Shown: positions 4,097-20,245 of the stretch, piece after piece
How positions within the stretch are numbered: the stretch's first letter is position 1
How the letters are laid out: each line of letters opens with the position of its first letter
Assembly (NCBI GenBank): GCA_021786095.1
Contig: JAJYNX010000023.1
Coordinates: 68,739 to 132,738, forward strand
Origin: Actinomycetes bacterium
GTDB taxonomy: Bacteria; Actinomycetota; Acidimicrobiia; Acidimicrobiales; RAAP-2
DNA length: 64,000 nucleotides
Reading direction: 5' to 3'
Made by a program: the position numbers and the translations under genes
The notes under the pieces: generated by a model
Told to the model about the DNA's origin: nothing
Database searches by the model: none
Seen by the model: the letters and a program-made list of their open reading frames with translations, nothing else

Positions 4097-4446
4097 GTGC
4101 ACCAACCTATCCCCACGGACCACTGCCGCAGCCATGCCCGTCAGTGGAGGAACCGGTCGTGCGCGGTACCCCTACCGTGGCGAACGACGCCATGTCATCC
4201 ACGGTGCCATCGCCGCAACCGCCACACGAGTCTGCACTGCCCGCGTCGCGCGCAACGCTCTCCACGTTCTCGCCGTCATCCCGTGACGAACTCGGCCACC
4301 GCAGAGCGAGACCGTGACCACGGGTCTCCTCGTGCCCTCCCTTCGACGGATGATGAGCGAATGTCGTCCGCGGTAGAGGACCGAGCACAGAGCACGCCTG
4401 GAGTGGGCCCCGGGTGATGATCCCCCCGGCTCGCTACTCTGACGAG

Positions 4447-5061
4447 ATGTCCTGGCCCGCCCAGCGCGTCACATCGATCCTGCTCACGGGTGGCGCGAGC
4501 CGCAGGATGGGGCGCGACAAGGCGAGCCTGCCTATCAACGGGTCCACCTTGGCTCGCCGCACGGCGGCTCTCCTCGAACGCGTGACTCTCACCGCGCTGG
4601 AGGTCGGACCGGGCACGTCGGGGCTGTGGGCGACCAGAGAGGTCCCTCCGGGCGCCGGCCCTCTCGCGGCAATCGCCGAGGGCTGCCGCGCACTGCGCCA
4701 ACACGGTCACGACGGAGGCGCGCTCGTCGTCGCGTGCGACTTACCCTTCGTGAGCGAGGATCTCCTGCGCTTCCTCGTCGCCTACGACGCGCCGGGCTCG
4801 GTCGTTCCGATCGTCCGCGGCCGGGCGCAGCCACTACTGGCGAGGTGGGGCCAACACGATCTCGACGCCACGCCAGGCCTCGTCGCACACGGCGCCCGAT
4901 CACTTCGCGCCCTGCTCGCTCGTCCCGGCGTGACCTTTCTTGATGCGTCGACGTGGAGTCACGTCGCCGACGACACAACCTTCGCTGATGTCGACAGCCC
5001 CGACGACCTCCGACGCCTCGGATTGTCCGTCGACGGCGAGGCGCCAACGAGCACAACGTGA
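4447..5061 (+). CDS. mobA: Molybdenum cofactor guanylyltransferase
   Basis: LLTGGASRRMGRDKASL and ACDLPFV motifs; TACTCT 6 nt before ATG. Confidence 0.85.
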   Translation: MSWPAQRVTSILLTGGASRRMGRDKASLPINGSTLARRTAALLERVTLTALEVGPGTSGLWATREVPPGAGPLAAIAEGCRALRQHGHDGGALVVACDLPFVSEDLLRFLVAYDAPGSVVPIVRGRAQPLLARWGQHDLDATPGLVAHGARSLRALLARPGVTFLDASTWSHVADDTTFADVDSPDDLRRLGLSVDGEAPTSTT

Positions 5062-5495: not shown

Positions 5496-6353
5496 GTGCG
5501 AGGGGGTGACGTGAGTCGAGTTTCGCCCGAACGACCGATCGTACGCATCACGGTCGGAGCCGATCGCGAGCAGGGCCGTGACGCCCTCTCTGGTGAGGAG
5601 CCCCTGGAGTTGCGCGTGGACGGCCGGTCGCTGGCGGTGACGATGAGGACGCCGGGAGCGGACTTCGACCTGGCCGCAGGATTCCTCGTCAGTGAAGGGG
5701 TCATTACCCGCACCGAGGAGCTGCGCGAGATTCGTTACTGCGTGGGGCGCGACGTCGACGAGGCCAACCAGTTCAACGTGCTCGACGTGCACCTCGCTGC
5801 GGGGATCACACCACCGGGCAGTGACGTGGCGCGAGCGTTCTTCACGACGAGTTCGTGCGGGCTCTGCGGCAAGTCTTCCATCGCGGCGGTGCGCACACGC
5901 TCACACTTCGACGTCCGCGATGACCCCCTCCAGGTGACCGCCTCGACCCTGGTGAGCCTGCCCGACCGCCTCCGCGCCGCGCAGCGCGTCTTCGAGCGAA
6001 CGGGCGGACTTCACGCGGCGGCGCTGTTCAGCGCCGACGGCGAGCTCATCGTCCTGCGAGAGGATGTGGGACGTCACAACGCGGTCGACAAGGTGGTCGG
6101 CTGGGCATTGCGCGAGGGACGTGTGCCGATACGCGACTCGATCATGCTGGTGTCGGGCCGGGCGTCCTTCGAACTCGTGCAGAAGGCGGTGATGGCGGGT
6201 GTGCCGATGCTGTGCGCCGTGTCCGCGCCGTCGTCGCTCGCCGTCGACCTCGCGAACGAGTCCGGTCTCACCCTCGTGGGCTTCCTACGGGCACCCTCGA
6301 TGGTGGTCTACGCCCGAGCCGATCGAGTGACGAACTCCACGGCCCCGGACTAA
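5496..6353 (+). CDS. fdhD: Formate dehydrogenase accessory sulfurtransferase FdhD
   Basis: [38 protein letters not shown]. Confidence 0.93.
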
Positions 6354-8651
6354 CTACGTCATCGCCGCCGACGGAACCGACACCGGCTCCAGCCGGACGA
6401 TGATGGACTTCGAGGTCGGCGTGTTGCTCCCGATCGCGGTCGAGTCGAGCGGCACGAGCACGTTGGCCTCGGGGAAGTAGGTCGCGGCGCACCCGCGCGG
6501 CGTCGGATAGGCCACCGCGCGAAACGCCTCGGCTCGACGCTCGCCATCCGACCACACACTCACGAGATCGACCGAGTCGCCGTCCGCAAGCCCCCGCTCG
6601 GCCAGGTCGTCGGCGTTGACGAAGACCACGCGGCGCCCGCCCTCGATACCGCGGTAGCGGTCGTCCAGTCCGTAGACCGTGGTGTTGAACTGATCGTGCG
6701 ACCGAACGGTCTGCAAGATCAGGTGCCCCTCGGGCAGGTGGATCGCGTCGAGCGCGTTGCGGGTGAAACGCGCCCTGCCGGTGGCGGTCGCGAACGTTCG
6801 CGAGTCGTGCGGGCCCCGAGGCAGCATGAAGCCGCCCGGCTGACGCACCCGCTCGTCGAAGTCCTCGAACCCCGGGATCACCTGCTCGATGTGGCGGCGA
6901 ATCACGCGGTAGTCGCCCGCCATCGCGCGCCACCCGACGTCCTCGCCGAAGAGCGCCTCGCCCAGTCCCGCCACGATCGCGACCTCGCTGCGCAAATGCG
7001 GCGAGCCCGGCGCGAGTCGTCCTCGCGAGGCGTGCACCATCGACATGGAGTCCTCGACGGTCACGAACTGCTCGCCACCCTCCCGCACGTCCCGCTCGGT
7101 GCGCCCGAGGCACGGCAGCAGCAGCGCCGACTCTCCGTGATAGAGGTGAGAGCGATTCAACTTGGTGGCGACGTGGACCGTCAACCGGCAGTTCGCCATC
7201 GCCGCCATCGTGACCGCGGTGTCGGGAGTGGCCGCGACGAAGTTGCCCCCCAGCGCGACGAAGACGTCGACCCGGCCGTCGCGCATGGCACGAATCGCCT
7301 CCACCGTGTCGTAGCCGGGATCGCGTGGGGGGGCGAAGCCGAACTCCTCACCCAGACGGTCCAAGAAGGCGTCGGGCATCTTCTCCCATATGCCCATCGT
7401 GCGATCACCCTGGACGTTGCTGTGGCCGCGGATGGGCGACGGACCGGCTCCCGGTCGTCCGATGTTGCCGCGCAGCAGGAGAAAGTTCACGATCTCGCGA
7501 ATGGTCGCCACGGCGTTGCGGTGCTGGGTGATCCCCATTGCCCAGCACACGATCACGCTCTTCGCCGCCACGACGTCGTCGGCGAACTCCTCGATCTGCG
7601 TACGCGAGAGTCCGCTGGCTTCCTCGATCTGCGACCACTCGAGCTCTCGCCAGCCCTCGCACGCCTCCGCGAAGCCGTCACAGTAGGCGTCGATGAACGG
7701 ATGGTCGACGATCGTGCCCGGCGCCCTCTCCTCCCTCGCCAGCAGCGCCTTGTTGATGCCCGCGAACATCCCGAGATCACCGTTGACCCGCACCGGGAGA
7801 AAGCGATCCGTCAACGCCGTGCCCCGGCCCATCACGCCCCGAGCCCGCTGGGGGTTCTTGAAGCGCACGAGCCCCGCCTCGGGCAGCGGGTTGGCCGACA
7901 CGATCCTCGCGCCGCGACGCTTGGCCGTCTCCAGTGCGCTCAACATGCGGGGGTGGTTGGTGCCGGGGTTCTGCCCGACGATCACGATGAGATCGGCGTG
8001 GTCGGTGATGTCCTCGAGGCTGACGGTCCCCTTGCCCACGCCGATCGTCTCGGTGAGCGCCACGCCACTCGACTCGTGACACATGTTGGAGCAGTCGGGT
8101 AGGTTGTTCGTCCCCAGGCGTCGGGCGAGCAGTTGGAAGAGGAAGGCGGCCTCATTGCTAGCGCGGCCGCTGGTGTAGAAGACGGCGCGGTTCGCGTCAG
8201 AGAGACTCGCCAGGTGCTGCGCGCACAACTGCAGAGCGTCGTCCCACGAGATCGGGGCGTAGTGGGTGGCCCCCGGCGCGAGGTAGAGAGGCTCCGTGAG
8301 CCGCCCGAACTGCTCCAACGAGTGGTCGTCGAGATCGCGCAGATCGTCGACGGAGTGCGTCGCGAAGAACGCGGGGCCCACCCGATCACGCGTCGCCTCC
8401 CACGAGACCGCTTTGGCCCCGTTCTCGCAGAACTCCGCGTGACTGCGGTGCCCCGGCGACGGGTCCGGCCACGCACAACTCGGGCAGTCGAAACCGTCAA
8501 CCTGATTCATGGCCGTCAGCGTCGCCAGACTCCTCGCGACGCCCATCTCGTTGAGCGCTCGACGCAACGACACCTCCACGGCGCGTGGCCCGACCGCCGA
8601 CGTCGCGGGCCTGCTCACCTCGATGCCGCTGCCAGTGACGTCATCGCCCAT
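6354..8651 (-). CDS. FdhF/YdeP-type molybdopterin oxidoreductase
   Basis: FDCPSCAWPDP, HAEFCENGAKAV, LPDCSNMCHESSG, GNFVAATPD; start chosen at MGDDVTGSG. Confidence 0.9.
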   Translation of the reverse strand: MGDDVTGSGIEVSRPATSAVGPRAVEVSLRRALNEMGVARSLATLTAMNQVDGFDCPSCAWPDPSPGHRSHAEFCENGAKAVSWEATRDRVGPAFFATHSVDDLRDLDDHSLEQFGRLTEPLYLAPGATHYAPISWDDALQLCAQHLASLSDANRAVFYTSGRASNEAAFLFQLLARRLGTNNLPDCSNMCHESSGVALTETIGVGKGTVSLEDITDHADLIVIVGQNPGTNHPRMLSALETAKRRGARIVSANPLPEAGLVRFKNPQRARGVMGRGTALTDRFLPVRVNGDLGMFAGINKALLAREERAPGTIVDHPFIDAYCDGFAEACEGWRELEWSQIEEASGLSRTQIEEFADDVVAAKSVIVCWAMGITQHRNAVATIREIVNFLLLRGNIGRPGAGPSPIRGHSNVQGDRTMGIWEKMPDAFLDRLGEEFGFAPPRDPGYDTVEAIRAMRDGRVDVFVALGGNFVAATPDTAVTMAAMANCRLTVHVATKLNRSHLYHGESALLLPCLGRTERDVREGGEQFVTVEDSMSMVHASRGRLAPGSPHLRSEVAIVAGLGEALFGEDVGWRAMAGDYRVIRRHIEQVIPGFEDFDERVRQPGGFMLPRGPHDSRTFATATGRARFTRNALDAIHLPEGHLILQTVRSHDQFNTTVYGLDDRYRGIEGGRRVVFVNADDLAERGLADGDSVDLVSVWSDGERRAEAFRAVAYPTPRGCAATYFPEANVLVPLDSTAIGSNTPTSKSIIVRLEPVSVPSAAMT

Positions 8652-8798
8652 CGTTCCCCCATCCGACGGTGCCGCCCACGCGCACGTGCCATCGGGCCCC
8701 ACGCCGACCCTATCGCGACCTGGCGACGAGGAGGGTGGCGGCGGGCGAGCGGGCGCGTCACCTTCTCGTTGAGGGAGCGTGACGGTAGGGTGACACCC

Positions 8799-8936
8799 GT
8801 GACGAGCACTCTGATGGCGGTCCGTGGTGCCAGCGTGCCCGCCTGGCTCAACGCCCCGCAGCGAGTCTGTCGCGCGGCTGGCGCGGCCGAGGCCGCGGCG
8901 AGCCGGCACCGGATTCAGACGGTGGGTCCCGCGTGA
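8799..8936 (+). CDS. Possible small leaderless ORF (45 aa) coupled to moeA
   Basis: TAGGGT-N7-GTG; its TGA overlaps the moeA GTG (GTGA). Confidence 0.3.
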   Translation: MTSTLMAVRGASVPAWLNAPQRVCRAAGAAEAAASRHRIQTVGPA

Positions 8937-10177
8937 TCCCCGTGGACGAGGCACGGGCGTACGTACTCTCGCGGCTCTCGCCTCTGCGCCCCGTCGACCG
9001 TGCCCTCGGCGACGCCCTCGGGTGCGTGGCGGCGGCGGAGGTGCTCGCTCGCGAGGCGACGCCCCGCTTCGAGAACTCCGCGATGGACGGCTACGCACTG
9101 CGCGCCCGTGACACGGCGTCAGGCGCAGCGCGCCTGCGCATCGTCGACGTGGTGTTCGCCGGCGCGGCGTCCAGTCGAGCCATCGGCGAGGGCGAGGCCG
9201 CACGAATCATGACCGGGGCCCCGCTGCCCCCCGGCGCCGACAGCGTCTGCCTCCGAGAGGACACGCTCGTCGAGGCGGACGGGCACCACGTCCTCATTCA
9301 GCGCGCGGTACGCGACGGCGAGGCCGTGCGTCGCGTCGGCGAGGACGTGGTGGTGGGTCAGACACTGGTCCAGCCCGGCGACGTGATCGGACCAGCTCTC
9401 CTGGGAGCGCTCGCCGGCCAGGGCGTTCAGTCGCTGACGGTGCATCCCGCGCCGCGGGTGGGGGTTCTCTCGACGGGTGACGAGATCGTCGACGAGGCAT
9501 CGCCCCTCGCGCCCGGTCGTATCCGCGATGCCAATCGGCCCATGCTCATCGCGTCGCTGCGCCAATCGGGCTGCTCCCCCGTTGACCTCGGTCACGTCGA
9601 CGACGCGAAGGAGGCGCTGCGCGAGGCCTTCGAGCACGGTGCGCGCACGTGCGACGCGGTGATCTCCACGGGTGGCGTGAGCGCGGGCGACGCCGACTAC
9701 GTCAAGGTCGTCCTCGGCGAGCTCTTCGGCGACGCGGCGCGGTCCATGCAGGTCGCGATGCGACCGGGCAAGCCCTTCACGTACGCCTACGACGAGGCGA
9801 CGGCGACGCCCTTCTTCGCCCTCGCGGGCAACCCCGTCTCGACGCTCGTGGGCTTCGAGCTCTTCGTGCGGCCCGCGCTGCGGCACCTCGCGGGACACCA
9901 CGACCTCGAGAGGGTCGCGTGGCCCATGGTGCTCGACTGCGACATCGCACGCACGCGCGACGCCAAGCTGCACCTCATCCACGCGGTCTGCTACCTTCAC
10001 GAGGACGGGCGACTGCACGTGGCGCGCGTCGCCCCACCCGGCTCGCACCTCCTCTTCGCCGTCGCCGATGCGAACTGTTTGCTGCTGTCACCCGAGAGCG
10101 ACGGGCTGGTGGCCGGCGACGTCGTGTCGGGAATCATCGTCGACGAGTCGAGGGTCGCCGAGGGGCCCGGACACTAG
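8933..10177 (+). CDS. moeA: Molybdopterin molybdotransferase MoeA
   Basis: FENSAMDGYALRA, IMTGAPLPPGADSV, STGGVSAGDADYVK, ALAGNPVS. Confidence 0.95.
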   Translation: MIPVDEARAYVLSRLSPLRPVDRALGDALGCVAAAEVLAREATPRFENSAMDGYALRARDTASGAARLRIVDVVFAGAASSRAIGEGEAARIMTGAPLPPGADSVCLREDTLVEADGHHVLIQRAVRDGEAVRRVGEDVVVGQTLVQPGDVIGPALLGALAGQGVQSLTVHPAPRVGVLSTGDEIVDEASPLAPGRIRDANRPMLIASLRQSGCSPVDLGHVDDAKEALREAFEHGARTCDAVISTGGVSAGDADYVKVVLGELFGDAARSMQVAMRPGKPFTYAYDEATATPFFALAGNPVSTLVGFELFVRPALRHLAGHHDLERVAWPMVLDCDIARTRDAKLHLIHAVCYLHEDGRLHVARVAPPGSHLLFAVADANCLLLSPESDGLVAGDVVSGIIVDESRVAEGPGH

Positions 10178-10253: not shown

Positions 10254-10913
10254 TCATTCCCCGGTCGCCGTCTCCGACGGCTCGCCGACCTCCTCGCGCC
10301 ACCACCGTGGCGCATTCGTCGCGGCCCACTGCTCGCTCACGCGACCGCGCAGCATCGACGACAGGGCCTCACGATGGCGCAGAGCCATGACGACGTGCCC
10401 GACGATGACCACCGTCAACAGCCACGCGACGAGGTCGTGGACGAACGTGGAGCCCACCCGCCACGAGAGGGGGAAGTACGCGAACCACTTGAGGATGATC
10501 CCGGTGCCCAGCATGACCGTGCTCAGGGCTCCCACGAAAATGGCGTTCAGTTTCTGTGCCGGGTTGAACTTGTCCGCCGTGAGCGACGTGCGGCCGCGCG
10601 TCGTGAGCCATTCGACCTCCTCGCGACGCCAGACGTTGATGCGACGCAGATCACGCCGCATCCGGGCGCCCCACGGACCGGGCAGAGACAGGACGAGTGG
10701 AACGGGCAAGCTCACCCCCGCCCACAAGTGAACCTGCTCCACGGTGAAGCGGGGCAGCACCAGTCCGACCAAGGACCCGAAGTAGAGCGGGATCGCCGTC
10801 ACGACGAGCACCGCGAAGAGCAGGGCGGTGGTCCAGTGCGCGGCGCGTTGGACGGCGTCGAAGCGCACGAGGTCGCGCGGTGACGTGGTGGCCGCCCGTG
10901 AGCTCGCGTCCAT
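10254..10913 (-). CDS. Cytochrome b561/formate dehydrogenase gamma-like membrane subunit
   Basis: RFDAVQRAAHWTTALLF, VHDLVAWLLTVVIVGHVVMAL. Confidence 0.8.
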   Translation of the reverse strand: MDASSRAATTSPRDLVRFDAVQRAAHWTTALLFAVLVVTAIPLYFGSLVGLVLPRFTVEQVHLWAGVSLPVPLVLSLPGPWGARMRRDLRRINVWRREEVEWLTTRGRTSLTADKFNPAQKLNAIFVGALSTVMLGTGIILKWFAYFPLSWRVGSTFVHDLVAWLLTVVIVGHVVMALRHREALSSMLRGRVSEQWAATNAPRWWREEVGEPSETATGE

Positions 10914-11623
10914 CACGCCGGCGAGGCGGCGTCGGTCGCCCCCGTCGAGCCGTCCAGCCAGCCGTTGACGGGGTAGCCGTTCCTCTCCCAGAACCCGGGC
11001 TGGACGTCGCGCACGACCCGAATCGCCGACAGCCACTTGAGCGACTTGTACCCGTACATCGGCGCCACGTAAAGCCGTACCGGTCCGCCGTGCTCGGTCG
11101 TGACACGCGCCCCGAGCATCCGGTACGCCACGATGACGTCAGGGCGGCGTGCTTGATCGAGGGTGAGACTCTCCGTGTCGACCCCGTCGTAGGACTCGAA
11201 GGTCAGCGCCCGCGCCTCTCCCCGCACGCCGACGACATCGAGCAACTGGGAGAGACGCACTCCCTCCCAGTGGACGTCCGGGACCCGCCACCCCGTCACG
11301 CACTGGAAGGCGCGCACGAGCGAGGTCGACGGCAGGGCCTCGAGGTCGGCGAGGGTGAACGTGGTGGGTCGGTCGACGAGTCCGGTAACCGCGAGGCGGT
11401 AGCGGGAGTCACTGATGACGGGATACTGCCCACTGATCGAGTACAGGCGGAAGCGATCACCGCCCGGGAGCAGGCCACCGAGTCCCGAGCCCAGCGCGTT
11501 GGCGAGGCCCCGTTGGGCACTGGCGCCAACCGTCACGCCCAGCGCGCCCGCGGCGGCGAGGGCGATGAAGACCCGGCGCCCCACGCGAATTCCCTCGCCC
11601 GCCGGGCCGTTCGTCACGCGCAC
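10913..11623 (-). CDS. Sulfite-oxidase-fold molybdopterin-dependent oxidoreductase (MsrP/YedY-like)
   Basis: FQCVTGWRVPDVHWEGVRLSQLLD, MYGYKSLKWLSAIRV; 1-nt overlap with the cytochrome b gene. Confidence 0.87.
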   Translation of the reverse strand: MRVTNGPAGEGIRVGRRVFIALAAAGALGVTVGASAQRGLANALGSGLGGLLPGGDRFRLYSISGQYPVISDSRYRLAVTGLVDRPTTFTLADLEALPSTSLVRAFQCVTGWRVPDVHWEGVRLSQLLDVVGVRGEARALTFESYDGVDTESLTLDQARRPDVIVAYRMLGARVTTEHGGPVRLYVAPMYGYKSLKWLSAIRVVRDVQPGFWERNGYPVNGWLDGSTGATDAASPA

Positions 11624-11782: not shown

Positions 11783-12271
11783 CTAGGCGCGCGTCTCGGC
11801 GATGAGCCGCCCCCAATCCGCGGACGTGCCCCCCGTCTTTCGCAGAAGCACCAGGTCCTCGACGCGTGCGCGCGGATCGCGATCGACCACCGCACCGAGG
11901 AGGCTGAGGGCGGCGACGCAGCACGCCGTGAGCGCCTCCATCTCCACTCCCGTGCGGTGGACGGTCACCACGCTCGCGCGCACCACGACGCCGTCATCAC
12001 GCCGCTCGATCTCGACGTGGACGTCGTCGAGGTCGACGGGGTGGCACAGCGGGATCAGTCGGGAGGTGCGCTTGGCCGCCTGGACGCCCGCGAGCCGGGC
12101 CGCCAATCCGGGGTCGAGGCCGCCCGGCGGTGGCACGATCGCGAGGAGGTCGAGGCGAGAGCGAACGACGCAGCTGGCCTCGGCGGTACGCCGTGTGGAC
12201 TCCTTGCCCGATACGTCGACCATGCGCGCTCGGCCGTCGCTGTCGAGATGCGTGAATTCCTGCTCCGCCAC
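11783..12271 (-). CDS. moaC: MoaC-like A (keeps MVDVSxK, CHP, GVEMEALTA; lacks KGDV lysine and YDMCKAVD)
   Basis: Manual alignment to E. coli MoaC; see finding. Confidence 0.85.
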   Translation of the reverse strand: MAEQEFTHLDSDGRARMVDVSGKESTRRTAEASCVVRSRLDLLAIVPPPGGLDPGLAARLAGVQAAKRTSRLIPLCHPVDLDDVHVEIERRDDGVVVRASVVTVHRTGVEMEALTACCVAALSLLGAVVDRDPRARVEDLVLLRKTGGTSADWGRLIAETRA

Positions 12272-12384
12272 CGCGCCTCCGTCGCATCGATCTCGCGAGA
12301 GACCTCTGCGCCGATGCTACCCACGGTCACCACTGCGGCCACGGCCGCGGTGTCCGCACGGGTCGGCCTCACTAGGCTCGCGAC

Positions 12385-13536
12385 ATGAGTCACGACGGCG
12401 CACAACCCGGCGCCACCGGCCTCTCGGCCGGCCGGGCCTCCTCCTCGGTGGCGACCGCGCCCGAGGGGGTCGCGGTCGCCCTCTCGGTGCGGCCTCACCG
12501 AACCGCGTCGAGCGGCGCACCCGACTCGCCCGCCGCCGCGTCCATGCCCGTCACCGGTGCGCTCGTCGACCGCTACGGCCGCGTCCACTCGGACCTTCGC
12601 CTCTCGATCACCGACCGCTGCAACCTGCGCTGCGTCTACTGCATGTCCGAGGACATGACGTTCCAGGCCCGCGAGGAGTTGCTCACCTTCGACGAGATCG
12701 AACGAGTGTCAGCCGTGGCGCGATCGCTCGGCGTGACCTCGGTCCGGCTCACCGGCGGCGAGCCGCTCGTCCGTCGCGGCGTCGAGGACCTCGTCGCACG
12801 ACTGCGCGCACTGGGCTACGACGACATCGCGTTGACGACGAACGCCGTGCGCCTCGGCCCGCTCGCCCGACGCCTGCGCGCCGCGGGCCTCACCCGAGTC
12901 AACGTCAGCTGCGACTCTCTACGACCCGAGCGCTACGCGTCGATCCGGCGCCGCGGCGATCTCGCGACGGTGCTCGCCGCCATGAACGAGGCCGAGTCGG
13001 TGGGCCTCGCGCCGCTCAAGGTCAACGTCGTGCTGCTGCGCGGCGTCAACGACGACGAGGTGCTCGACTTCGCCTCATTCGCCCGCGAGACCGGCCGGGT
13101 CGTGCGCTTCATCGAGTTCATGCCGCTAGACGCCCCGGGGCAGTGGGACCGTGGCCAACTGATCGCGGGCCGCGAGGTCCTCGAGCGCATCCACGCCGTC
13201 TGGCCGATCGAACCGGTCGACGGCTCCGATCACGTGGCCCCGGCCGAACGGTTCCGCTTCCGCGACGGACGCGGTGAGATCGGCGTGATCTCGAGCGTCA
13301 CGGAGCCGTTCTGCGGAACCTGCAATCGTCTGCGGCTCACCGCGGACGGGTCGCTGCGCAACTGCCTGTTCGCCAACGAGGAGAGCTCGGTGCGCGACGC
13401 CCTGCGCCGAGGCGCCAGTGATCACGAGATCGAACAGATGATGCGGCGGGCGGTGTGGGCGAAGCACCCCGGACACGCCATCAACGAGCCCGCGTTCCTT
13501 CGGCCGCATCGCTCGATGTCGATGATCGGCGGCTAG
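12385..13536 (+). CDS. moaA: GTP 3',8-cyclase MoaA
   Basis: SITDRCNLRCVYCM, FCGTCNRLRLTADGSLRNCLF, C-terminal MIGG. Confidence 0.96.
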   Translation: MSHDGAQPGATGLSAGRASSSVATAPEGVAVALSVRPHRTASSGAPDSPAAASMPVTGALVDRYGRVHSDLRLSITDRCNLRCVYCMSEDMTFQAREELLTFDEIERVSAVARSLGVTSVRLTGGEPLVRRGVEDLVARLRALGYDDIALTTNAVRLGPLARRLRAAGLTRVNVSCDSLRPERYASIRRRGDLATVLAAMNEAESVGLAPLKVNVVLLRGVNDDEVLDFASFARETGRVVRFIEFMPLDAPGQWDRGQLIAGREVLERIHAVWPIEPVDGSDHVAPAERFRFRDGRGEIGVISSVTEPFCGTCNRLRLTADGSLRNCLFANEESSVRDALRRGASDHEIEQMMRRAVWAKHPGHAINEPAFLRPHRSMSMIGG

Positions 13537-13600
13537 CCCCTTTCGCGGCGCGCAGGGCGGCACTACTGTGTGCTCGAGCAGTTCGTGACTGGGGGGAGTT

Positions 13601-14716
13601 ATGAGCAGCGTACGGGTACTCGTGGGCACTCGCAAGGGGGCCTTCGTTCTCACCGCAGACGGGACTCGCCGTTCGTGGGCCATCGAGGGACCCCTCTTCG
13701 GCGGGTGGGAGATCTATCACCTCACGGGATCGCCGGTCGATCCGAACCGACTCTTCGCGTCCCAGTCTTCCGGGTGGTTCGGCCAGCTGATCCAGCGCTC
13801 GCACGACGGGGGCGCCACGTGGGAGCCGGTAGGCGGCCAGTTCGCCTACGACGGCGCACCCGGCACTCACCAGGGCTTCGACGGCACACCCCACCCCTGG
13901 GAGTTCTCCCGAGTGTGGCACCTCGAGCCCTCGCGCGACGACCCCGACACGGTGCTGGCGGGCGTGCAGGACGCCGCCCTCTTCCGTTCCACCGACGCGG
14001 GCGAGAGCTGGCACGAGCTCTCGGGACTGCGCGGCCACGCCAGCGCCGCGCTCTGGCAGCCCGGAGCCGGCGGCATGTGCCTGCACACGATCATCGTCGA
14101 TCCCACGGCCCCCAACCGGATCTTCGTCGCCATCTCGGCGGCGGGGGTGTTCCGATCCGACGACACGGGCGTGACCTGGCGACCGATCAACCGCGGCCTG
14201 CGCTCCGAGGGCATCCCCGATGACGACGCCGAGGTCGGGCACTGCGTGCACCGTATCGCGCTGCACCCGTCACGGCCCCACACCCTCTTCATGCAGAAGC
14301 ACTGGGACGTCATGCGCAGCGATGACGGTGGCGACTCGTGGACCGAGGTGAGCGGCAACCTGCCGAGCGACTTCGGGTTTGTGGTCGACGTGCACGCGCA
14401 CGAGCCCGACACCGTCTACGTCGTGCCGATCACGAGTGACTCGCTGCACTACCCCGTCGAGGGGCGACTACGGGTCTACCGCAGCCGAAGCGGCGGCGGT
14501 GACTGGGAACCGCTGACCACCGGCTTGCCCCAAGAGCACTGCTACGTGAACGTGCTGCGCGACGCGATGGCCGTGGACTCACTCGACGAGTGCGGCGTCT
14601 ACTTCGGCACCACGGGTGGCCAGGTCTACGCCTCCCCCGACGCTGGCGACACGTGGAGCGCCATCGCGCGCGACCTGCCGGCGGTGCTCTCGGTGGAGGT
14701 GCAGACCCTGACATGA
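13601..14716 (+). CDS. BNR/WD40/YVTN-like beta-propeller protein
   Basis: Repeated SxDxGxSW / SDDGGDSW Asp-box motifs. Confidence 0.8.
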
Positions 14717-15009
14717 TTCGCGTCGTGCTACCCCCTCACCTCACCACGCTCATCGGCGTCCACGGAGAGATCGAGGTGGACGTCGAGGTCCCGGCCAGCC
14801 AACGGTCTCTCCTCGACGAGGTCGAGCGCCGCTATCCCGTGCTCGTCGGGACGATACGCGATCCCGCGACCCACCGACGCCGAGCCTTCATTCGGTTCTT
14901 CGCCTGCGAGGACGACCTCTCGCATCAGCATCCCGACGCCCGGCTACCCGGCGACGTCGAGAGTGGCCGCGAGGCCTTCTACGTGGTGGGGGCGATGGCG
15001 GGCGGTTGA
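14713..15009 (+). CDS. MoaD/ThiS-family ubiquitin-like small protein
   Basis: ATGA overlap with BNR gene; [25 protein letters not shown]... ending in GG. Confidence 0.75.
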
Positions 15010-15097
15010 CCACGGTACCGTCGGTCGGCGCCACCCACCCATCCAGTGTGGGTGCTCACACCCTCGTTGCCGCACGGGGTCTCGTTAGTCTGGGGCC

Positions 15098-15499
15098 GTG
15101 ACACGATATCGAGTGGGCCAGGCCGCCGAACTCCTAGGGATCAGCGTGGACACCCTTCGCCGCTGGGCTAGTGCCGGACGGATCTCCGTGTCGATCGGCA
15201 GTGACGGACGGCACTACTACGACGGTGCCGACCTGGCCGCTCTCGCCAGCACACTGGGCGCGGATCCCGCTCCCGAGCGCCCCCGCGCCCAGTCCGCGCG
15301 CAACCGCTTCGTCGGCATCGTGACCCGCGTCGTGCGCGACACGGTCGCCGCCCAAGTGGAGATTCAGGCCGGACCGCACCGGTTCGTGGCGTTGATCACT
15401 CGTGAAGCCGCCGACGAACTGGCGCTGGAGCCCGGCGTCGTGGTCGACGCCGTCGTCAAGGCCACCAGCGTAGGCGTCGAGATCCCGTCCCAGTTCTAG
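15098..15499 (+). CDS. HTH (MerR-type) + Mop/TOBE molybdate-responsive regulator
   Basis: GQAAELLGISVDTLRRWASAGRI plus ARNRFVGIVTRVVRDTVAAQVEIQAG...VVDAVVKATSVGVE. Confidence 0.85.
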   Translation: MTRYRVGQAAELLGISVDTLRRWASAGRISVSIGSDGRHYYDGADLAALASTLGADPAPERPRAQSARNRFVGIVTRVVRDTVAAQVEIQAGPHRFVALITREAADELALEPGVVVDAVVKATSVGVEIPSQF

Positions 15500-15509
15500 A
15501 CCGCCGAGC

Positions 15510-17372
15510 TCACTGAGCGCCAGGGACGACGGAGCCGCCGCCCACGTGCGCCCACAGGGATACGTCGCGCGCCCGAATGACGAGCACGCACGCCTCACCC
15601 ACCGACCACGGCGCCGGATCCGACGAGCGCACCTGCAGCTCCTGCGAGGGCCCGACGGCGACGAGGTAGTCGCTCGCCACGCCGACGAAGGCGGCGTCGA
15701 GCACCGTCGCGAGCACGCGCGACACGTCGCGGTCGTCCCCGTGGGGCTCATCGGATGCTCTCTCCAGGGTGACCCGCTCGGGCCGCACGCTCCACGACAC
15801 GCTGGTGCCCGGCGCGAACGCCGACGCGTCCGCACGCACCAACGACCCGCCCCACGCGATGGTGTCCGGCGCGACCACCTCCGCCGGCGCCAGGTTCGTG
15901 ATGCCCACCAGCCGCGCGACCTCGGGCGAAGCGGGGCGCGCGAACACCTCACGACTGGGTCCGGACTGGAGTGCCGTTCCCCGGCTCACGACCAGGACAT
16001 CATCGGAGAGGAGACCGGCCTCCTCGGGGTCGTGGGTCACCAGAACGGTCGGCAGACCGGTCTCCTGCTGGAGCTGGCGTAGCAGGCGCCGCAACTCGTG
16101 GCGCACCGGCACGTCCAGCGCGGAGAAGGGCTCGTCGAGCAACAGCACCTCGGGTGAGCTGCACAACGCCTGCGCCAGGGCGACCCGCTGGCGCTGACCG
16201 CCCGAGAGCTGGCGGGGGTACGCCGCCGCGAGGCCGTCCAACCCGAGTCGCCCCCGCCAGTAGGCGGCGAGGGCGGGGGTCGCCCCGCGGGCGAACAGGA
16301 GTTGCTGGTCCACCGTCAGGTGCGGGAACAGCGCGAAGCCCTGGGCGACGTACCCGACACGCCGCTCGACGACCGGCACGTCGCCCAGATTGCGCTCGCC
16401 GCACCAGAATCCCACCCCCGGGCCGGCGAGACCGGCGAGGCTGCGCAACAGAGCCGACTTGCCCGCCCCCGAGGGACCCAGCACCGCCAGGTGCCGCACG
16501 GGCGTGTCGTGGACGAGTCGCAGGTGGAACGCACCGAGCCGCCGGTCCACGTCGAAGCGCAGTGGCTCGCCGGCGGCGCGGAGCGGAGCGCGAGGCTGAT
16601 CGACCACCGCGAGGTCGGGGTCCCGGTGCCGCGGGCGGACGCGGCTCAGCGCCACGACGACGCCCGCGACGCCGAGCGCCAGGGCCGTCGGCGCGAGGGT
16701 CGTCGGCAGGCCCGCGCCGCTGAACTGGTTGTACGTGTAGACCGGCAGAGACGTCGGGTTGTAGGCGAGCACCACCACCGCGCCGTACTCGCCGAAGGCC
16801 CGCAGCCACGCCAGGAGCATGCCGGCGCGAATGCCGGGGCCCGCGACCGGCACCGCCACGCGCACGAAGCGTGACACCTCGCCGTGGCCGAGCGTTGCCG
16901 CGACGTCGAGGAGCCCCTGGTCGATCGTCTCGAACACGGACCGGGCGGCGACGATGAGAAACGGTGCGGCCACGAAGGTCATCGCGAGGACGACGCCCAC
17001 GCGCGAGTTCGTGAGCTGGCGATGGAAGAGCCGTCCGAGGACGGTGTAGGGGCCGACCAGGTAGACCAGAATGATGCCGCTCATGAGCGGCGGCAGGGCC
17101 AGCGGAATCTGAACCAGCACGCCGACAGCCTTCGCGATGCGGCTCGTCGAGCGAGCGAGCACGAAGGCCAGTGGTACGCCGACGACCGTGATGAGGGCGA
17201 GGGAGATGGTCGCACTACTCAGCGAGAGACTGAGCGCCGGCCAGAGGCCGGGCTGGTGGAATCCGCGCTGGCTCGTGGAGACGAGACGAACGACGAAGGC
17301 CACCAGCGGCGCGCCCAGGTAGACGACGACCAGTGCGCCGAGCAGGCGCAGGGGGCTGCGCAGGCCGCTCAC
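15510..17372 (-). CDS. modBC: Fused molybdate ABC transporter permease-ATPase (ModBC)
   Basis: Permease (EYGAVVVLAYNPTSLPVYTYNQF), Walker A GPSGAGKSALL, LSGGQRQRVALAQAL, TOBE-like C-terminus, in one continuous frame. Confidence 0.85.
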   Translation of the reverse strand: MSGLRSPLRLLGALVVVYLGAPLVAFVVRLVSTSQRGFHQPGLWPALSLSLSSATISLALITVVGVPLAFVLARSTSRIAKAVGVLVQIPLALPPLMSGIILVYLVGPYTVLGRLFHRQLTNSRVGVVLAMTFVAAPFLIVAARSVFETIDQGLLDVAATLGHGEVSRFVRVAVPVAGPGIRAGMLLAWLRAFGEYGAVVVLAYNPTSLPVYTYNQFSGAGLPTTLAPTALALGVAGVVVALSRVRPRHRDPDLAVVDQPRAPLRAAGEPLRFDVDRRLGAFHLRLVHDTPVRHLAVLGPSGAGKSALLRSLAGLAGPGVGFWCGERNLGDVPVVERRVGYVAQGFALFPHLTVDQQLLFARGATPALAAYWRGRLGLDGLAAAYPRQLSGGQRQRVALAQALCSSPEVLLLDEPFSALDVPVRHELRRLLRQLQQETGLPTVLVTHDPEEAGLLSDDVLVVSRGTALQSGPSREVFARPASPEVARLVGITNLAPAEVVAPDTIAWGGSLVRADASAFAPGTSVSWSVRPERVTLERASDEPHGDDRDVSRVLATVLDAAFVGVASDYLVAVGPSQELQVRSSDPAPWSVGEACVLVIRARDVSLWAHVGGGSVVPGAQ

Positions 17373-18244
17373 GATGACGGCGGCGTGATGCCGTGACGGC
17401 GAAGGATCGCCCGGCCCCGCGGTCCGAGCAGGAACGAGATGAACGCCCGGGCCGCGGCCCCGTGCGGCGCCCGATTCACCAGGGCCAGCGTGTACGTCGC
17501 ACCCAGGTGCACGCCAGTGAGCGCCACCGTGTGCAGGTGCGCCGCCGACGCCTCCACGCCGTAGAAGAATCCCGCGTCGATCTGTCCGGCGTCGAGCTCG
17601 CCGACCAGTGCGGTCTCGGAGAAGACGTTCGCGCTCGACCTCGCCAGAGCCGCGAGTCGTGCCAGTCCGTAGCGGTGGGCCGCGTCGTCCAACGCCATCA
17701 CGGCTAGAACGCCCTTCGGATCGGTGGCGGGATCGGTCCGCCCGAGTAGGAAGCCGGGCCGTCCCACCACCTCGTACCACGGACGTCGTCGCAGCGCCGC
17801 AGCGAAGACCGATGCGGGGTTGTAGCCCAGGACCAGCGGCGAACGACCCATCACACGATACGAGGTGATCCAGTTCCCGTTGGCCGGACCCTCGAGGGCG
17901 CGGTCCGCGCCGGGTGACGCGCTGAGCAGGACGTCCGCGACCTCGACTCCTCCCTTGATCTCCGCGACGAGCGCTGACGAGCCATTGGCGAATCCCCGCA
18001 CGCTGTAGCCGGTCGCCCGATGGAAGGCCGGGCCGATGTCCTGCTGCATCACGGTGAGCAGGGAGCCCGCGTAGAGGACGTCCACCGACCCCGGTCGTGG
18101 CCGGCCGGCGTTCCCGAGCACGGGCGCGACCGCGACCGCAACCACCACGAGAGCGAGCACGGACCACGCCACGGCGGGCCGACGGAGCCGACGCGCGAGT
18201 TCGAGGGGGGCCCGTGATCGTGCCGGTCGTCGTTGGTCACTCAC
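17369..18244 (-). CDS. modA: Molybdate/tungstate-binding protein (ModA/WtpA type)
   Basis: VDVLYAGSLLTVMQQDIGPAFHRATGY, GFANGSSALVAEI; GTGA overlap with modBC. Confidence 0.87.
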   Translation of the reverse strand: MSDQRRPARSRAPLELARRLRRPAVAWSVLALVVVAVAVAPVLGNAGRPRPGSVDVLYAGSLLTVMQQDIGPAFHRATGYSVRGFANGSSALVAEIKGGVEVADVLLSASPGADRALEGPANGNWITSYRVMGRSPLVLGYNPASVFAAALRRRPWYEVVGRPGFLLGRTDPATDPKGVLAVMALDDAAHRYGLARLAALARSSANVFSETALVGELDAGQIDAGFFYGVEASAAHLHTVALTGVHLGATYTLALVNRAPHGAAARAFISFLLGPRGRAILRRHGITPPSS

Positions 18245-18407
18245 GGGCCCCTCCTTCCGCACGCCCGTTCGCGCCACCGCGGTCGAGTTCAGGCGTCATC
18301 AACTGCCGCACCGCGCGAGCGAAGGGCCAGCGCCATCCCACCCACCGCGATAGTAGGCCGCGAATCACGCAAATGCGCGTAAAAATCACAGATTAGGCTG
18401 CATCTGC

Positions 18408-18440
18408 GCACGCTCGACGCCCCTCGGGCGTCGAGCGTGC
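18408..18440. promoter_or_regulatory. Perfect 15-bp hairpin/inverted repeat between modA and moaE
   Basis: GCACGCTCGACGCCC-CTC-GGGCGTCGAGCGTGC; an additional direct CTCGGGCGTCGA lies at 18452-18463. Confidence 0.5.
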
Positions 18441-18506
18441 CACCGCCACCACTCGGGCGTCGACACTGTCGGAGCCGCCGTCAGGACCCCCGGTAGGGTT
18501 GGGCTC

Positions 18507-18971
18507 GTGAGGCCCCCCGAGACGCTGGAGTGGGTAGCGGTGTCCCCCCTGCCACTCGACCCCGGCGCGCTCGCCGCGTGGGCCACGCGCCCCGAGTGCG
18601 GCGCCGTCGTGACCTTTTGCGGCAACGCACGCGCGACGACGGCGGCCGGCCACGAGATCATCGAGCTCGACTACGACGCCGACGTCGCCCTCGCCGAGGC
18701 GCGGATCGGTGAGGTGACCGCGGCGGCGCGCGACCGCTGGCCCGAGGTGGTCGCGATCGCCATCCACCACCGCGTCGGCCCTGTCGCGGTCGAGGAGCCG
18801 GCGGTAGTCGTGGTGGTCGCCTCCCCGCACCGGCACGAGGCCTTCGAGGCCGCCCGGTTCTGCATCGACGCCGTGAAGTCGACCGTGCCGCTCTGGAAGC
18901 GCGAGGTCTGGCGCGACGGAGCGGCCTGGAGTGCGCAGGCCACTCCCATCAGAGACGTAGGCGAGTTGTGA
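18507..18971 (+). CDS. moaE: Molybdopterin synthase catalytic subunit
   Basis: CGAVVTFCGNAR, LDYDADVALAE, IHHRVGPVAVEE, VKSTVPLWKRE. Confidence 0.93.
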   Translation: MRPPETLEWVAVSPLPLDPGALAAWATRPECGAVVTFCGNARATTAAGHEIIELDYDADVALAEARIGEVTAAARDRWPEVVAIAIHHRVGPVAVEEPAVVVVVASPHRHEAFEAARFCIDAVKSTVPLWKREVWRDGAAWSAQATPIRDVGEL

Positions 18972-19047
18972 GCACCTCCCCGCGCGGCGCCGCACCGACC
19001 GCACGGGTGACGAGGACGCCCCCAAGGCGTGCGACGCGGGCGTCACG

Positions 19048-19284
19048 ATGAGTCACCTGCTGCTGCTCGGCCCGGCGCGTGACGCCGCCGGAGTGCGCCA
19101 CGACGAGGTCGAGGGGGACACGGTGGGCGCGGTCGTCGCGGCCGCCATCGCGCGCTACGGACCGGCGTTCGCGGACGTCGTGGCCGTGAGCGCGCTCTGG
19201 GTGAACGGCGCTCGCGCCGACGCGAGTCAGGCGGTAGGCGCCGACGACGAGGTGGCGGTGCTGCCGCCGATCTCCGGTGGATGA
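19048..19284 (+). CDS. moaD: Molybdopterin synthase sulfur carrier subunit
   Basis: LLLLGPARDAAGV...DDEVAVLPPISGG. Confidence 0.9.
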   Translation: MSHLLLLGPARDAAGVRHDEVEGDTVGAVVAAAIARYGPAFADVVAVSALWVNGARADASQAVGADDEVAVLPPISGG

Positions 19285-19748
19285 TCGTCGTTGGTCCCTT
19301 CGAGGAGAGCGAGCGCGTGCGACAGAAGCGGAAGGATCGCCTCCAGCGATTCGAGGGCGCCCCGACGTGATCCGGGGGTGTTGATGATCAGGCAGCGGCC
19401 GACGGTCCCGCATCGCGCCCTCGACAGCGGGCCGTAAGGGCTCGTCGCCCTCATCACCTCGGCGAGCCCCGGCGCCTCGCGCTCGATCACCGTCAGGGTT
19501 GCCTCGGGGGTCACGTCGCGTGGGGAGAAGCCCGTGCCGCCGGTCGTGAGCACCAGGCCCGCGAAGTCCTCGGCGAGTCGACGAAGGGACGAAGCCACCG
19601 ACTCGTGTCCGTCGGACACTACGCACCGCTCGACCACGACGAAGCCCGCCTCCTCGAGGCGGGCGGCGAGCTCCGGTCCCGCCGTGTCGACGCGCTCGTG
19701 CGCGCTCACCGAGTCGGAGACGGTCAGCACCTTCGCCAGTTTCGCCAC
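19227..19748 (-). CDS. mog: Molybdopterin adenylyltransferase (MogA/MoaB family)
   Basis: VLTVSDSVS, VLTTGGTGFSPRDVTPEAT, LIINTPGSRRGALESL. Confidence 0.92.
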   Translation of the reverse strand: MAKLAKVLTVSDSVSAHERVDTAGPELAARLEEAGFVVVERCVVSDGHESVASSLRRLAEDFAGLVLTTGGTGFSPRDVTPEATLTVIEREAPGLAEVMRATSPYGPLSRARCGTVGRCLIINTPGSRRGALESLEAILPLLSHALALLEGTNDDHPPEIGGSTATSSSAPTA

Positions 19749-19807
19749 ACCCCGAGCGTAGGACTCCGCTCGCGCCCTGACGGCGCGGCGCCCTGGTAGA
19801 GTCGCGC

Positions 19808-20245
19808 ATGGTCGATGACCGTTCTCGCCCCCTCGCCGGCGACGCGTCGACGGGTGCCGACTCGCGACACGTGCTCGCCCGCAGTCGGGTCACGATGAGC
19901 CCCGAGACGGCGAGACGGGTGGCGTCCAACGAGGTGGCCAAGGGAGACGTTCTTGGCGCGGCCCGCTACGCCGGCCTCCAGGCCGCCAAGGAGGCGGACT
20001 CGTACCTGCCGCTCTACGACACCGTCGCGGACGCTCGCGTCGTCGTGGACTTCACCGTGGGCGACGACTCCATCGACGTACGGGTGGGCGTGACGCACCA
20101 CAGCGACCCTCCCCCGCACGTGGAGGCCCTCACCGCGGCCGCCGCGGCCGCGCTCACGATCTACGACATGTGCAAGGCGGTGGACCGCACAATGGTGATC
20201 GGCCCCGTGGAGCTGGTGGTCGGGGGCGACACTCCGGAGGACTGA
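19808..20245 (+). CDS. MoaC-like B (keeps KGDV lysine and YDMCKAVD; lacks CH, GVEM)
   Basis: AKGDVLGAARYAGLQAAKEADSYLPLYDTV...PPHVEALTAAAAAALTIYDMCKAVDRTMVIGPVEL. Confidence 0.88.
   Translation: MVDDRSRPLAGDASTGADSRHVLARSRVTMSPETARRVASNEVAKGDVLGAARYAGLQAAKEADSYLPLYDTVADARVVVDFTVGDDSIDVRVGVTHHSDPPPHVEALTAAAAAALTIYDMCKAVDRTMVIGPVELVVGGDTPED

Follow-up and report, generated by a model that had tools for sequence, protein, structure and literature searches.

A candidate split-site MoaC encoded by two complementary, individually incomplete homologues in a molybdenum cofactor gene cluster of uncultured Acidimicrobiia

Background

How is cyclic pyranopterin monophosphate (cPMP) made in an organism whose molybdenum cofactor (Moco) gene cluster encodes two MoaC homologues, each lacking a different part of the active site? 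The question is raised by 64,000 nucleotides of contig JAJYNX010000023.1 (assembly GCA_021786095.1, positions 68,739 to 132,738 of the forward strand), the whole of which is referred to here as the window, and by two proteins encoded in it, MoaC-A and MoaC-B (hereafter A and B). The source genome (2.1 Mb, 117 contigs, 96% complete) belongs to a lineage of uncultured soil and peat Acidimicrobiia, and the related metagenome-assembled genomes (MAGs) are mostly Acidimicrobiaceae, many of them labelled palsa, bog or fen. In canonical MoaC, dimers assemble into a homo-oligomer, and each active site lies at the dimer interface. From the residues that A and B retain, it is proposed that cPMP synthase in this organism is probably a heteromer of A and a partner from a second MoaC lineage, with one complete composite site per pair; in the source genome that partner is most likely B.

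Complementary residue loss in A and B

Both proteins were assigned to the MoaC family by Pfam PF01967 (112 bits for A and 100.8 bits for B, cut-off 27), and both scored under the cut-offs curated for canonical MoaC in NCBIfam, including that of TIGR00581. The proteins were aligned to a profile of MoaC sequences from the order, and residues are numbered according to Escherichia coli MoaC. Half I of the active site denotes the K51/D128/K131 side and half II the H77 side, to which C76, E112-E114 and the N-terminal MVDVSxK block presumably also belong, as general knowledge and the retention pattern indicate.

Window A retains the MVDVSGK motif, D17, K21, R26, K67, C76, H77, P78, TGVEMEA (E112, M113, E114), C119 and K147-x-GG-x-S, and lacks K51 (P/G), D128 (G), K131 (V), helix alpha1 and the run Y127-D128-M129-C130-K131. 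Window B retains helix alpha1 with K51-G52-D53-V54, K67, T125-x-YDMCK131 and also E114; Y-D-T replaces C76-H77-P78, H-V replaces E112-M113, and both the N-terminal MVDVSxK block and the C-terminal K147-GG tail are missing. All catalytic residues are present once A and B are pooled. The sequence-only reading had described two complementary, individually incomplete MoaC proteins that jointly supply every residue it listed; the frames, the family matches and the residue pattern were reproduced by the profile alignment, and the two sets of losses were found to be disjoint in the shared core.

A total of 60 related genomes were searched for MoaC, A, B, moaA, MoaE and molybdoenzymes, and the DNA around the matches was taken. 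The half-site pattern holds among A and B sequences that are about 50-60% identical. Across 37 A sequences, K21, R26, K67, C76, H77, T109-M113 and C119 are all 100% kept and E114 is 97% kept, while retention is 3% at K51, 14% at D128, 5% at K131 and 0% at Y127. The replacements vary (G, E, A, L, D, P or a gap for K51; V, L, G, Q, I, A or H for K131), and no new invariant Lys or Asp was found at the lost positions in these 37 copies. In the nine B sequences, retention is 100% for K51-G52-D53-V54 and D128-M129-C130-K131, 0% at K21, C76 and H77, and 11% at E112 and at E114; positions 76-79 and 109-114 carry replacements that differ from copy to copy. The residues of the retained half-site are 95-100% conserved in both sets, and any catalytic residue lost from A or B shows a retention of 92% or more in its counterpart. 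Chance and misalignment by eye were ruled out as sources of the pattern by this profile alignment of 37 A and nine B copies.

Complementarity was also assessed over the 65 columns in which identity reaches 90% or more among 68 canonical MoaC sequences. A has lost 14 of these columns and B has lost 30. Of the latter, 10 belong to the N-terminal block (H6-K21) and 7 to the C-terminal tail (E146-R157); both end regions are absent from B, except that E146 is present in 2 of the 9 copies. Only 2 columns are lost in both proteins as against 6.5 expected (P=0.007), and both lie outside the core. Within the shared core (E. coli positions 26-144) no column is lost in both, where 3.25 would be expected (P=0.012). 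In A and in B, divergence is lower at codon positions 1 and 2 than at position 3 (0.37/0.32/0.54 for B), which indicates that both genes are under purifying selection, weaker than that on MoaA.

Structural models and chain assignment

AlphaFold models of both proteins have the ferredoxin-like fold of MoaC, with a mean predicted local distance difference test (pLDDT) value of 90.4 for A and 84.1 for B, and the best Protein Data Bank (PDB) matches of both were all MoaC (TM-score, normalized by query length, up to 0.85 for A and 0.79 for B). Helix alpha1, which adjoins the ligand site of MoaC (PMC3602415), is missing from the A model and present in the B model. In Mycobacterium tuberculosis MoaC2, GTP was placed by superposition on the Thermus thermophilus complex, and the modelled ligand contacts K62, D137 and K140 of chain A and H88 of chain B (PMC3602415). 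By alignment these residues correspond to K51, D128, K131 and H77 of E. coli, so that the division between B and A matches the division between chains for each residue with a structural source. The suggestion, made from the letters of the window, that the active site is divided across a subunit interface therefore agrees with the published contacts, K51/D128/K131 coming from one chain and H77 from its neighbour. A catalytic role for the positions missing in A is also consistent with the existence of variant structures at two of them, E. coli MoaC K51A with unreacted 3',8-cyclo-7,8-dihydro-GTP (3',8-cH2GTP; PDB 4pya) and E. coli MoaC D128A (PDB 1eks).

A third homologue, MoaC-C

A profile search of the source genome yielded a third MoaC homologue, MoaC-C (hereafter C), on another contig (G000:C32:3066-3461; locus L004 3003-3512). 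It retains K51, K67, H77, E112-M113-E114 and YDMCK (D128, K131); RDLGSP replaces MVDVSAK, A replaces C76, and K21 is missing. Throughout the genus, K51, K67, H77, E112, E114, D128 and K131 are kept in every full-length C copy, and K21 and the MVDVSxK motif are absent from all. The full canonical set (K21, K51, K67, C76, H77, E112, E114, D128, K131) is accordingly found in no single chain, A missing K51/D128/K131, B missing K21/C76/H77/E112 and C missing K21/C76.

Across the genus, C lies between dxs and a WYL regulator, and in many members prfB and ftsE-like genes are found farther away; this is a housekeeping setting away from the Moco genes. Contamination as the source of C was ruled out by the conservation of the dxs/WYL neighbourhood. 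Within 1-4 kb downstream of C (e.g. L142, L146), most members have the conserved WYL-domain regulator, a TrwC-relaxase-like protein and an ATPase resembling a type IV secretion system (T4SS) coupling protein, and this relaxase/T4SS-like run is odd company for a housekeeping locus of the chromosome. One genome, G012, has two C-type genes (G012:C77, G012:C80); its contamination is 4% and the bin may be mixed.

C is kept in nine relatives in which no moaA, moaE or MoCoBD molybdoenzyme was seen (G002, G004, G006, G010, G013, G020, G021, G035 and G036) and in which the PF00384 matches are NuoG-like in size or fragmentary; K51, H77, E112, E114, D128 and K131 are kept at these loci. A few of these absences may reflect missing contigs (completeness 86-97%), and the related pair G021/G030 differs in Moco content; nine Moco-negative genomes with C should exceed what incompleteness would give. 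Since C occurs in these relatives, it appears not to be simply the canonical enzyme and to have another role there. The sequence-only reading had allowed for a canonical moaC elsewhere in the genome. A nearly complete third MoaC does exist, but without K21 and C76, and with a presence in Moco-negative relatives, it was rejected as that canonical enzyme.

Distribution and co-occurrence

A single canonical MoaC was present in 24 genomes of other families of the order. In the genus of the window, an A-type protein was found in 25 of 37 members, and canonical MoaC was found in none of these 25. All 25 have moaA (cut by a contig end in G001 and G017) and a C-lineage protein (a contig-end fragment in G014). 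The remaining 12 members have neither A nor moaA, and 9 of the 12 have C. A therefore never occurs without a partner that carries half I (25/25 genomes), and B never occurs without A (9/9). B stands beside mog in all nine clusters that have it. The distance between A and B is 8-10 kb in the seven cases on one contig, and in two genomes the genes are on separate contigs. Apparently decaying A-like second copies, each broken by a stop codon (TGA or TAG), were noted at G009:C96:22782-22979, G029:C57:142892-143089 and G005:C70:8430-8834, in genomes that also hold an intact A.

The association does not hold in the other direction. At least 11 clusters have A and mog on one contig and no B, and an assembly gap was ruled out as the reason for the missing B in these clusters, since A and mog share the contig. 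The expected co-occurrence of A and B was thus borne out one way only: B is found only with A, and A is often found without B. It follows that the more general partner of A must be C or the B' copies described below, and that B is probably a specialised partner.

Phylogeny and intermediates

A quick tree had many long branches and was repeated on 75 rows by a careful method. In both trees A forms one clade (support 100/98), and C, B and a group of intermediate copies, B', form another (100/97), with B nested among the B' copies. Like C, B' keeps half I together with H77 and EME and lacks MVDVSxK, K21 and C76. The mog-adjacent locus, B's own place, is occupied in G017 by a B' that retains H77 and EME. 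Another four genomes have B' immediately upstream of A and in the same orientation; among them, the B' stop and the A start of G023 overlap (GTGA) or are four bases apart, and this arrangement suggests joint translation of the two. The order from C, through B' in the cluster, to B without half II is the one expected if half II became needless once the protein was paired with A. A MoaC subgroup with A for C76 and V for C130, otherwise complete (L189:9977-10462, from Ca. Multivorans thiocomprendens, and L210:9980-10474, from a Thermoanaerobaculia MAG), lies near A in the tree, on long branches.

Gene content of the window cluster

The coordinates of the two MoaC genes and their neighbours are listed in Table 1. 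The placement of both genes inside a Moco cluster was upheld, with mobA, fdhD, an oxidoreductase gene, moeA, moaA, moaE and mog identified around them. The moaA gene is divergent from A across a gap of 113 bp, and mog is divergent from B across a gap of 59 bp. The Oxidored_molyb gene adjoins A in the window and in most A/B clusters, and A adjoins moaA in most clusters. The Pfam search of the window gave no family for the short frame tentatively listed as MoaD-like, which is possibly a divergent MoaD.

Table 1. Genes of the Moco cluster in the window (positions relative to the first nucleotide of the window)
Feature	Position	Strand	Remarks
MoaC-A	11783..12271	-	intact frame; Pfam PF01967; predicted half-site subunit
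MoaC-B	19808..20245	+	intact frame; Pfam PF01967; predicted half-site subunit
MoaA (radical S-adenosylmethionine GTP 3',8-cyclase; makes the MoaC substrate)	12385..13536	+	372.6 bits, over cut-off
MobA-like nucleotidyltransferase	4414..5061	+	family match
FdhD	5496..6353	+	family match
Molybdopterin oxidoreductase (FdhF-type client enzyme)	6354..8960	-	family match
MoeA	8933..10177	+	family match
Sulfite-oxidase-fold molybdoenzyme (Oxidored_molyb)	10913..11623	-	family match
MoaD-like small protein, tentative	14719..15009	+	C-terminal GG (ends GAMAGG); MoaD-compatible position
MoaE (molybdopterin synthase large subunit)	18507..18971	+	family match
Mog/MoaB-type molybdopterin adenylyltransferase (MoCF_biosynth)	19227..19748	-	family match

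Discussion

In the mechanism proposed, A would be one half of an obligately heteromeric cPMP synthase and would hold the second half-site only. Its partner would come from a separate MoaC lineage, C or the derived copies B' and B, always with the first half-site. Each A-B dimer would have one complete composite site and one empty pseudo-site. B would be catalytically useful only when paired with something like A, because it has lost almost all of the second half-site. The sequences, their conservation, the phylogeny, the gene neighbourhoods and the co-occurrence are observations, and from them we infer the assembly of A with B (or with C) and catalysis by the assembled pair. The A-B heterodimer first suggested for the window was sound in its half-site principle and in its division between chains; it was too narrow in its choice of partner, as the unit is probably A plus a C-lineage protein, with B specialised.

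The tree and the intermediates suggest a history that began with two MoaC lineages side by side, after which half I disappeared from A, and K21 and C76 from the C lineage. A copy of C would then have entered the Moco cluster as B', still with H77 and EME, and B would have shed half II because A supplied it. We cautiously favour, for the genus as a whole, such a passage from a homo-oligomer to an obligate split-site heteromer by way of C, B' and B, the C lineage also being kept for a Moco-independent purpose.

Several points weigh against the heteromer. The clusters with A and mog and no B mean that the A-B pair is not universal. The shared absence of A and moaA partly reflects losses of a single cluster or missing contigs, since the two genes are neighbours, and the related genomes are not independent. 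The correlation of A and B distances over nine genomes (r=0.75) was the highest of the pairs tested and vanishes without G011; as it hangs on this one genome, rate covariation was not counted as evidence. An open source for the chain assignment exists for K51/D128/K131 and H77 only. Finally, C is present in the genome with K51, K67, H77, E112, E114, D128 and K131, and might make cPMP alone.

This last point leads to the main rival, in which C (contig C32) is a working homomeric cPMP synthase, while A and B are catalytically dead and act on C or MoaA as regulatory or scaffolding relatives. The residues kept in each full-length C copy and the occurrence of C, in full or as a fragment, in every genome with A speak for it, as does the L189/L210 subgroup, whose members have A for C76 and are otherwise complete, so that loss of C76 need not kill activity. 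It is weakened by the nine genomes in which C occurs without moaA, moaE or MoCoBD and with only NuoG-like PF00384 matches, which argue for another role there, and by the absence from every C of K21 and MVDVSxK, which are kept in every A. A dead regulator would, moreover, not be expected to hold exactly one half-site invariant while B holds exactly the other, and the rival is judged unlikely.

A related explanation accepts the heteromer but pairs A with C in all members, B being a later, dispensable or regulatory copy that is not the main partner even in the source genome. C occurs in every A genome, and in the at least 11 complete-looking clusters with A and neither B nor B', A must work with C. 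Yet B keeps all half-I residues in nine divergent copies and sits in the Moco cluster, its lone half-site has no other evident use, and the C locus is a housekeeping one away from the Moco genes; we consider it quite unlikely that B is set aside in this way.

That A works as a homomer, its catalytic groups having been relocated so that the missing K51, D128 and K131 are compensated within A, would suit a gene found next to moaA in most clusters and kept by purifying selection, but the replaced positions vary freely among A copies with no new invariant Lys or Asp there, and this is very improbable. Decay of A and B as duplicates becoming pseudogenes, to which the fast evolution of B (mean pairwise distance about 1.2-2.3) and the stop-interrupted A fragments of G009 and G029 might point, can be dismissed almost entirely in view of the intact frames of all nine B and nearly all A, the lower divergence at codon positions 1 and 2 and the conserved half-site residues.

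Taken together, A and B resemble canonical MoaC (PF01967, TIGR00581; E. coli 1ekr/4pyd/4pya, T. thermophilus 3jqm, M. tuberculosis MoaC2 4fdf) in fold, profile, neighbourhood and pooled residues. Known MoaC proteins are homo-oligomers with all residues in one chain, whereas here the half-sites are on two genes; in M. tuberculosis MoaC2 (4fdf), for example, the equivalents of K51, H77, D128 and K131 are all in one chain (PMC3602415). Unlike canonical MoaC, A and B each miss residues that are invariant in the 68 canonical sequences compared. The presence of several MoaC homologues in one actinobacterial genome is shared with MoaC1/2/3 of M. tuberculosis. To our knowledge, those three have not been described as complementary half-sites. 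Split-site heteromers arise by complementary degeneration of duplicated homo-oligomers with an interfacial site, leaving one live and one dead site per pair; examples from other systems follow the same working principle with a different fold and reaction. A heteromeric MoaC was not found in the literature searched. A possible parallel to C, in a different protein, is Glp, a repurposed MoeA of Actinobacteria with a link to cell division (PMC11733289) and a Moco-pathway paralogue kept for another purpose.

Annotation by family match would label A, B and C each as a complete MoaC. The C lineage raises the separate question of what a MoaC relative does in cells without molybdenum cofactor synthesis. 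If the proposal is correct, this would be the first heteromeric MoaC in the literature searched, in an ancient and nearly universal pathway, and the question of which MoaC residues act from which chain becomes testable. It would also provide a clear natural series for the partition of an interfacial active site among duplicated subunits, the intermediates being present in living relatives.

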